NCBI GenBank assembly: GCA_016290835.1
Contig: JAEEVG010000010.1
Coordinates: 1-51,434 of the forward strand
DNA from: Bacteroidales bacterium
GTDB lineage: Bacteria > Bacteroidota > Bacteroidia > Bacteroidales > UBA932
Direction of reading: 5' to 3'
DNA: 51,434 nt
Position numbers and translations under genes: made by a program. The notes under the pieces were generated by a model. That model did not search any database. It saw nothing but the letters and a program-made list of their open reading frames with translations, and was not told the origin of the DNA. Of this stretch, positions 13,494-15,015 are shown one piece after another. Every line of letters begins with the position of its first letter. Position 1 is the stretch's first letter.

Positions 13494-15015
13494 GATCATC
13501 CATAATTGCGACGTCATCGAGGTCCGGGGCAACGCGGACATCGAAATCACCGCGCTGACCAACGACTCCCGCAAGGTCCGTCCGGGCAGCTTGTTCATTG
13601 CCGTGAACGGATGCGGGAATGACGGCCGGGCGTATATCGCCAGCGCGATTGAAAAAGGCGCTATCGCGATAATCCTGGAGGGTGTTTCCTCGTCGCCGGA
13701 GGGCTGCGACCGCCCGGGCAAGGAAACGTCCTCGCTCCGCTGCGGAAATGCCCGTTCGGCCGCACCCTCCGTCGACGAGCAGGTTACAACCGTCCTCGTA
13801 AAGGATAGCCGCAAGGCTGTCGCGATGGCCGCGGACGCCTACTACGGCCACCCCAGCGGCAAACTCAAACTCGTCGGCATCACGGGCACCAACGGCAAGA
13901 CCACGACCGTGACCCTGCTCTACCATATGTTCCGCAAGCTCGGCTACGAATGCGGCCTGCTCTCCACCATCGCCAACTACGTCGGCACCCGCCGCAGCGA
14001 GACCGCCAACACCACCTCCGACCCCGTCACCCTCAACGCCCTGTTGGCCGAGATGGTCGAGACCGGATGCGAATATTGCTTTATGGAGGTGAGTTCGATT
14101 GGCGTGGAGCAGCAGCGGATCGCCGGACTGGAGTTCCGTGTGGCCATCTTCTCCAACCTCACCCACGACCACCTCGACTACCACGGCAGCTTCGCCGAAT
14201 ACCTCCGTTGCAAGAAATGCTTCTTCGACGGCCTGGGTCCGGACGCGACCGCGATCATCAACCTCGACGACAAGCACGGCGAGGTGATGGTGCAGAACAC
14301 CCGCGCCCGCGTGGTGAGCTATTCCTGCCGAGGCGCCGCCGACCATACCGCCCGCATCCTCGAACAGGGTTTCGAGGGCATGCTGCTGCGCATCGACGGC
14401 CGCGAGGTCTGGACCCGCCTGATCGGCGAACACAATGCCTACAACCTCCTGGCCATCTATACCACGGCCCTCACCCTGGGTACCCCAGCCGACGAAGCAC
14501 TCGTCGCCCTGTCGCGCCTGGAGTCCGCCAAAGGCCGCCTGGAAACCCTCCGCGGCCCGCGGGACCTCAGCGTGGTGATCGACTACGCCCACACCCCGGA
14601 CGCCCTGGAGAACATCCTCAAGACCCTGCGGAACGTCGCTCCCGAGCGGCAGCTCATCTGCCTCTTCGGCTGCGGCGGCGACCGCGACAAGACCAAGCGC
14701 CCCGAGATGGGCGCCGTGGCCGGCCGCCTCGCAGACCGCATCTTCCTCACCTCCGACAATAGCCGCAGCGAGCGCACCGAAGACATCCTGCAGGACATCC
14801 TGCACGGGATGGACGCGGAAGCGACCACCCGGACCATCTGCATCGCCGACCGTCGCGAAGCCATCCGCACCGCCCTGCTGCTCGCCCCCCGGGGAGCCAC
14901 CATCCTGCTCGCCGGCAAAGGCCACGAGACCTACCAGATCCTCGGCACCGTCAAGAACCATTTTGACGAACGGGAAATCGTATTGGAAACCTTCAAATCC
15001 CTCGAGAAATGCTGA
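13480..15015 (+). CDS. murE: UDP-N-acetylmuramoyl-tripeptide synthetase MurE with in-frame palindromic insertion
   Basis: ATP-dependent ligase adding the third amino acid (probably meso-diaminopimelate) to UDP-MurNAc-dipeptide in the cytoplasm. The 511-residue protein has the N-terminal Mur domain, the P-loop GITGTNGKTTTV, the central HDHLDYHGSFAEY motif and the C-terminal domain with DYAHTPDALENIL. The amino-acid-selecting motif reads SDNSRSE rather than the usual DNPR; the arginine that contacts diaminopimelate is kept. Residues about 70-100 (SSPEGCDRPGKETSSLRCGN and on to SVDE) have no counterpart in typical Bacteroidales MurE, where only about ten residues join the same strands. At DNA level this insert is a long imperfect palindrome (13689-13779). 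The frame is intact and all catalytic motifs remain, so the enzyme should be active. Overlaps ftsI by 14 bp and mraY by 7 bp. Confidence 0.95.
   Translation: MKLSEIIHNCDVIEVRGNADIEITALTNDSRKVRPGSLFIAVNGCGNDGRAYIASAIEKGAIAIILEGVSSSPEGCDRPGKETSSLRCGNARSAAPSVDEQVTTVLVKDSRKAVAMAADAYYGHPSGKLKLVGITGTNGKTTTVTLLYHMFRKLGYECGLLSTIANYVGTRRSETANTTSDPVTLNALLAEMVETGCEYCFMEVSSIGVEQQRIAGLEFRVAIFSNLTHDHLDYHGSFAEYLRCKKCFFDGLGPDATAIINLDDKHGEVMVQNTRARVVSYSCRGAADHTARILEQGFEGMLLRIDGREVWTRLIGEHNAYNLLAIYTTALTLGTPADEALVALSRLESAKGRLETLRGPRDLSVVIDYAHTPDALENILKTLRNVAPERQLICLFGCGGDRDKTKRPEMGAVAGRLADRIFLTSDNSRSERTEDILQDILHGMDAEATTRTICIADRREAIRTALLLAPRGATILLAGKGHETYQILGTVKNHFDEREIVLETFKSLEKC
13689..13779. repeat. Palindromic element inserted in frame within murE
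   Basis: The outer arm 13689-13708 (CTCGTCGCCGGAGGGCTGCG) pairs with 13761-13779 with one mismatch and one gap. A second arm 13710-13720 (CCGCCCGGGCA) pairs with 13749-13759 with two mismatches, and a small CCGC-T-GCGG hairpin lies inside. The whole 91-nt segment can fold on itself and coincides with the extra residues of MurE. I saw no second copy in this window. Confidence 0.65.

Follow-up and report, generated by a model that had tools for sequence, protein, structure and literature searches.

Introduction

Protein-coding palindromes were reportedly presented by Ogata in 2002, in the title of that work, as a unique yet recurrent feature of Rickettsia. Intragenic invertons, which Chanin is said to have described in 2024, are reportedly stretches of DNA bounded by inverted repeats that are turned within a gene, altering the protein, and found within populations. 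As excerpts of the published accounts describe them, Rickettsia palindromic elements (RPEs) are dispersed palindromes on the 100-bp scale that lie in frame in conserved genes and at the same site in orthologues (PMC10969869, PMC3767692), and different RPE groups can occupy one site in Rickettsia (PMC3767692). An excerpt of a further paper states that RPEs lose repeat identity over time; it also describes palindromes in Nematomorpha mitochondrial genes, perfect inverted repeats in coding sequence that are apparently actively kept complementary and form no dispersed insert family (PMC6649704). In PMC3733652, CGTC-tagged REPs are dispersed palindromes with compensatory stem changes, found in Bacteroidetes among others, that also occur within genes, many of them in replication and repair genes, and that have a terminal CGTC, an 8–9 bp stem beginning with AT and a 4–5 nt loop.

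The element reported here lies in murE of a gut Bacteroidales genome. A likeness to the Rickettsia palindromic elements, proposed in the sequence-only reading of this DNA, holds in behaviour: the copies are palindromic, dispersed through genomes, in frame in conserved genes and common to orthologues. The phylum is another one, and the likeness is one of behaviour. RPEs are said to lose repeat identity, whereas the arms of the present element stay complementary, and in-place inversion, which the excerpts of PMC10969869 and PMC3767692 do not mention for RPEs, is seen here between species. Compared with CGTC-tagged REPs, the element is 92 bp long with arms of ~30 bp and a 28-nt loop, and its CGTC is in the loop rather than terminal; repeats like CGTC-tagged REPs do sit in the murE loop of some relatives. 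As in the Nematomorpha palindromes, inverted repeats in coding sequence appear to be kept complementary, but those are perfect repeats in mitochondrial genes and form no dispersed insert family. As in invertons, inverted repeats bound an intragenic segment found in both orientations with a changed protein; here, in contrast, the two orientations have been seen only in comparisons of different species, and what is turned round is itself the repeat element. Literature searches found no report of in-frame palindromes in this lineage. As far as the literature found extends, the lineage, the kept arm pairing and the inversion of a whole unit at fixed gene sites are new.

Palindromic element within murE

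The window is the whole stretch of DNA analysed, 51,434 nt of contig JAEEVG010000010.1 from the home genome (G000); other genomes and stretches are given by our own G and L numbers. Its murE gene (13480..15015, + strand; UDP-MurNAc-L-Ala-D-Glu:meso-DAP ligase) has an unbroken reading frame, an NCBIfam MurE assignment (PRK00139.1-4, 565.8 bits against a cut-off of 373) and three Mur ligase domains by Pfam (Mur_ligase, Mur_ligase_M and Mur_ligase_C). The frame remains open through a 92-nt imperfect palindrome (13688..13779, + strand), which is in frame, has its core in the direction of murE and encodes MurE residues 70–100, a probably disordered segment. A covariance model from which the copies of the home genome had been held out matched the element at E = 2e-14 (82.1 bits), within one base of the 91-nt palindrome that had been noticed at 13689–13779 from the letters alone.

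The left arm (13689..13720, +), which carries one bulged C, and the right arm (13749..13779, +) were delimited by folding, and the helix matching the left arm covaries in relatives. One outer arm is CTCGTCGCCGGAGGG(C)TGCG and its partner, on the opposite strand, is CTCGTCGACGGAGGGTGCGG; over 20 positions they have 18 matches, one mismatch and one bulged C, which confirms the 18 of 20 counted earlier. Between the arms (13721–13748) are a spacer and the core loop GTCCTCGCTCCGCTGCGGAAA (13728..13748, +), which can form a small inner hairpin and is shared with copies in relatives. Direct reading found the core loop without a stop codon in all six frames. Folded as single-stranded DNA, positions 13680–13790 gave -34.1 kcal/mol versus -22.5 ± 2.7 for 200 dinucleotide shuffles, none of which folded as well (z = -4.29). 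A repeat finder reported nothing over 13500–14000, because the arms are interrupted by the bulge and mismatches.

MurE loop in relatives

MurE was searched in 61 genomes and 30 chosen ones, and the loop was readable in 56 loci, among which one G282 gene is represented twice. From the DGR/DGH motif to GTNGKT the window MurE has 94 aa, compared with 69 aa in G008 and 70 aa in G015, whose MurE proteins are 84–87% identical to it and have an empty site. The insert noticed in this protein is real, and the loop is not common to all related MurE proteins. The supposition that Bacteroidales MurE typically joins the two strands with about ten residues did not hold for all relatives, since the stretch varies from 52 to 113 aa across the murE loci read (a range that leaves out L250, the extracted stretch of which begins too far upstream). 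Palindromes are present in several of the longer loops as well. In G143, which groups with G008 and G015 in the ligA/murE tree, murE has a different insert with no covariance-model match. The element core is reversed relative to the window in the murE of G201 and G388, and G307 has an apparent remnant of the element, TDERAFP, as read from the loop sequence.

AlphaFold modelling of the window MurE with 30 relatives gave a mean pLDDT of 85.6. Residues 71–98 were the sole run of three or more residues with pLDDT below 50, forming a low-confidence loop between the strands 61–67 and 103–107, and aligning the protein with the solved MurE fusion 8f5d sets the insert against a gap of about 26 residues. 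The low pLDDT probably reflects a disordered loop, a reading of the model that it fits, and too few sequences for the insert could also cause it. MurE would thereby have gained a 31-residue loop that joins two N-terminal-domain strands and probably has no effect on the enzyme.

Distribution of the element family

Within the home genome, a 26-nt match at 96% led to a second copy, which lies in the C-terminal tail of ligA. Searching with a 34-nt pattern, in which up to 3 mismatches were allowed, recovered the window copy alone, and a shorter core, followed by a covariance model, was therefore used. The model was built from 34 copies, those of the home genome excluded, and in that genome it matched the murE copy (E = 2e-14), the ligA tail copy (E = 1.8e-15), two weaker copies (E = 8e-6 and 3.1e-5) and a marginal one (E = 0.006). 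Among 400 genomes of the genus, 32 had matches at E ≤ 0.01, the home genome among them; 17 were firm (best E ≤ 1.1e-7), so that 16 genomes besides the home genome carry the element firmly, and 15 were weak (best E 2.7e-4 to 0.0095), some of which may be chance matches. Copy numbers from the model are lower bounds, drawn from the best 10 candidates per genome, and G201 and G325 reach 10. In an order-wide sample of 393 genomes from 206 genera the home genome was the sole match, and none of the other 392, at least two of them in the same genus, had one. All genomes are drafts, and the compared ones are mostly MAGs.

The core CGCTCCGCTGCGGAAA was present with at most one mismatch in 112 of the 400 genus genomes, versus 17 of 400 for the reversed control pattern, which occurred once in each. 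Exact core matches cluster, with at least four in G098 and at least four in G388 among the matches listed. A scan of 84,980 species for the 21-nt core returned 42 stretches, 34 of them titled Bacteroidales or Bacteroidia; the remainder were five in one Melainabacteria MAG and one each in Saccharofermentans, an acidobacterium and Herbidospora. No Rickettsiales record was among these 42 exact-core stretches, in a scan that used the core alone. The exact core was not found in IMG/VR, and a distant blastn of 13680–13790 had no match in phage records. The family consists of dispersed palindromes of about 92 bp, seen in the samples searched in one gut Bacteroidales genus.

If the segment were instead a locally grown, fast-changing MurE loop, palindromic by chance or through local duplication and belonging to no dispersed family, the great variation of murE loop length in the genus would be accounted for. 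The element is found in other genes and genomes by a model made without the home genome, and its fold z-score is -4.29; the home-genome-free matches refute this explanation, to which we assign practically no probability.

Host genes and reading frames

Host genes were studied in 46 copies with flanks, drawn from 103 covariance-model matches listed and mostly picked by exact core; among the matches left out are a ligA copy of G082 and the longer variants that G087 and G098 carry. An open frame with codon bias (an excess of third- over second-position GC of at least 0.2) contained 39 of the 46 copies. A product was recognised for 36 of the 46, comprising 3 murE, 8 ligA and 25 by Pfam, the last being those with a family at E ≤ 1e-5 among the 28 coding copies outside murE and ligA. 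Pfam placed the element after DUF3656 in a U32 peptidase (6 species), in a PrmC-like methyltransferase (3 species), in a Radical_SAM_N protein of the YgiQ type (3), before the C-terminal domain of an ABC-F protein (2) and in a DUF1573 protein (2). Single cases had RecQ, RNase P protein, MFS, AIR synthase, GDSL lipase, ABC transporter, radical SAM, THUMP-like and SurE domains. The names PrmC, YgiQ and ABC-F are our reading of the Pfam domains, and in the SurE, GDSL and ABC transporter cases the element lies upstream of the domain, possibly even before the gene's true start. One PrmC-like gene, that of G388 (L109, 1457–1605), has a tandem of three 66-nt units in frame. LigA copies are in the C-terminal tail and ABC-F copies between domains, and several others are inside a domain.

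On average 4.93 of six frames were open per copy, compared with 4.27 in GC-matched windows. All six were open in 15 of the 46 copies versus 274 of 3,386 GC-matched windows, which overlap each other. Random positions in a gene-dense genome might be coding as often as the copies are, and there is therefore no sign of a preference for genes.

Pairing of the arms

Arm pairing was analysed in 36 Bacteroidales copies. These were obtained from 45 core sequences by dropping nine (six belonging to other phyla, one truncated at the end of its contig and two tandem units), and the 34 copies of the model are this set less two copies of the home genome. All but one (35/36) form a long hairpin with the core in the loop; L110 folds weakly. 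In an alignment-free test, arms paired with their own partners averaged -59.1 kcal/mol versus -40.3 kcal/mol with swapped right arms, so that swapping costs ~19 kcal/mol on average. The own partner was the best of 36 for 24 of the 36 copies, and none of 20,000 permutations reached the observed sum. In the alignment, 21 of 22 arm pairs had two-sided changes, with 157 two-sided changed cells versus 50.6 in shuffles (0 of 500 as high) and 33–50 when the arms were slid. The arm-swap test is the more independent of the two, because the structure used for covariation came from the same alignment.

The arms are ~30 bp long and differ between copies yet remain complementary, around a common loop. Invariance of the core is partly an artefact of construction, because most copies were found using the core, and other loop types exist. 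From the table sums, one-sided changes numbered 15 against the 157 two-sided, and 111 cells were unpaired. The excess of two-sided changes points to copying from one arm to the other; stepwise change of the arms may also fit, given the 111 unpaired cells. An origin of the arms as inverted copies of the target flank was considered and rejected, because copies at different sites have arm sequences in common.

Strong covariation and strong intragenic hairpins are also what a structured RNA or attenuator would give, were it selected in the mRNA with the covariation reflecting RNA function. Wobble pairs are few, however (22 of 637 paired arm cells), as are one-sided changes, and Rfam returned a single match over 13000–15100 at E = 0.51, far below its cut-off. 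The element also lies either way round within the same genes and occurs in genes unrelated to one another, which argues against selection as an RNA; we consider such selection very improbable.

Other palindromes in the murE loop

Several palindrome families that are unrelated to one another have settled in the murE loop. Of 49 loop stretches, 9 fold at z of -3.0 or lower, for example in G224 (-6.7), G168 (-4.6), G004 (-4.5) and G229 (-4.3). The fold test misses cases, as the murE loops of G201 and G388 carry the element and score only -0.4 and -1.4. Searches against 0.81 Mb of other DNA matched the murE insert of G229 elsewhere at 90–98% over 42–44 nt and that of G082 at 92% over 79 nt, and also matched elsewhere two repeats from murE loops, one with GATTCCCG..CGGGAATGAC and one with TGTCATCCTGAGCGAAGCGAAGGATC. 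With up to two mismatches, the TGTCATCCTGAGCGAAGCGAAGGATC repeat was found in 12 of 14 genomes searched (among those that have it in murE, 41 copies in G027, 65 in G114, 70 in G096, 74 in G066 and 2 in G168), and the reversed pattern in none of the 14. The home genome has 25 copies over many contigs, and some variants there are paired, for example TGTCATTCTGAGCG..GAATC. One palindromic repeat is apparently split by another in the G096 murE loop (L258), CCTGAGCCTGTCGAAGG lying inside TGTCATCCTGAGCG..AGCGAAGGATC.

Shared sites and orientation

Identity between copies at the same site in different species was 0.789 (n = 54), above the 0.721 for copies at other sites (n = 981) and the 0.742 for different sites within one genome (n = 106), and none of 2,000 label permutations gave as high an excess. 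Site labels in this test came from the Pfam results, and L102 and L234 were counted in it as different sites. Same-site pairs had nearly the same identity in opposite (0.788) and same (0.791) orientation. Mean identities of the element and of its upstream flank were 0.824 and 0.826, with the element the more alike in 28 of 54 pairs, as expected from descent.

Regrouping the 46 copies by flanking DNA alone gave 8 sites cleanly common to at least two species (ligA, U32, prmC, YgiQ, murE, ABC-F, DUF1573 and the gene of L102/L234); the flanks of L231 and L239 match inconsistently, and 15 copies stand alone. Both orientations occur at all 8 clean sites, in 32 opposite and 23 same-orientation pairs. 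On a tree of ligA and murE, orientation at ligA requires at least 4 changes among nine carriers. The same tree joins G201 and G307 as sisters with a support of 100 and about 0.07 changes per site, and these two species have opposite orientations at 3 of 3 shared clean sites, ligA, prmC and the L102/L234 gene. Their ligA elements are 0.93 identical when aligned by core and 0.84 as they lie in the gene, with flanks at 0.92 and 0.90. At prmC the identities are 0.91 by core and 0.90 by gene, with similar flanks at equal distance on both sides; the two values are nearly equal, and the turn there is therefore revealed by the core and the bulge alone. Reading frames at ligA and prmC are kept despite the opposite orientation, including the frame downstream in prmC. 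Identity at the third site is 0.87.

The arms follow the core at ligA (0.97 vs 0.77) and, between G008 and G201, at YgiQ (0.93 vs 0.83), and in the clearest cases the whole unit therefore turns. With arms only, 19 of 29 measurable opposite pairs went with the core, 5 were ties and 5 went against it, the last at U32 and in the G282 ligA copy; two prmC pairs were outside the measurable set. Core-aligned identity exceeded gene-aligned identity in only 20 of 31 opposite pairs. Some older pairs may stem from independent insertion in the other orientation. Assembly error behind the inversions was considered and appears unlikely, judging from the open frames, the agreement of several assemblies and the length of the unit, 92 bp, which is presumably below that of usual reads.

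Repeated insertion at hot spots would dispense with turning in place, each species having gained its own copy from a shared pool at tolerant places and in random orientation. The nearly random orientations (32 opposite vs 23 same) are in keeping with such insertions, as are the strongly diverged copies at some shared sites, e.g. U32, and the uptake of several unrelated palindrome families by the murE loop. Against them, identity is higher among same-site copies than it is within one genome (0.789 vs 0.742), and the G201/G307 ligA element has diverged as much as its gene. We regard separate gain at every shared site as unlikely.

Proposed mechanism and significance

The murE segment is probably a copy of a dispersed palindrome family that spreads rarely, keeps its arms complementary and is occasionally turned whole in place. 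Spread would be a rare event in which a hairpin-recognising enzyme, provided in trans, moves the folded element. Gene-destroying insertions would be lost, and others would be tolerated in most frames and either orientation because stop codons are few. Once settled, the hairpin or cruciform may be processed during replication, by template switching or exchange between arms, with the result that one arm takes on the sequence of the other and that occasionally the whole unit is turned; either process would explain both arm correction and inversion.

Y1 transposase genes were found in 296 of the 400 genus genomes at E ≤ 0.001 and in 11 of 12 genomes rich in the element. The 26 Y1-transposase loci taken from those 11 genomes all lacked a copy within about 1.5 kb, even at E ≤ 1. 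No Y1/RAYT mobiliser adjoining the copies was found in this test, and Y1 enzymes are therefore no more than candidates. No target-site duplication was resolvable by eye at the compared copies, at which inverted repeats are present.

More speculatively, the elements could be self-inverting coding palindromes, whole units of which flip during growth, so that one population makes two versions of MurE, LigA, PrmC and further essential enzymes, the two differing in a disordered loop that stays open in both. The flipping process, and not selection for function, would then keep the arms complementary. We think this rather doubtful.

Sister species let the persistence, arm correction and orientation of single copies be followed. 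A gut lineage shows coding palindromes in essential genes, which makes testable how DNA-folding repeats live in translated genes and how disordered loops join core enzymes. Alignments of MurE and LigA from such genomes, it should be cautioned, include inserted repeat DNA.

Variants and other hairpins

In other phyla, strong hairpins with arms of unrelated sequence have the 21-nt core GTCCTCGCTNCGCTGCGGAAA as their loop, as in the Melainabacteria MAG JACOTS (L124, L131, L132, L143 and L155, five near-identical) and Saccharofermentans (L144). The window has a hairpin of 20-odd bp at 5996–6057 (AAAAGAAAATGACTG...CAGTCATTTTCTTTT), adjoining tRNA-like sequence, which was the lowest-energy outlier of the window scan. 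A longer variant of the element, about 107–113 nt with an extra stretch ahead of the core, is present in the related genomes G087 and G098 (L097–L100 and L105–L108). The weaker model matches L225, L226, L242 and L244 have similar arms and a different loop (AGCTGTCGC or AGCTTTCGC), and arms and loops may therefore recombine.
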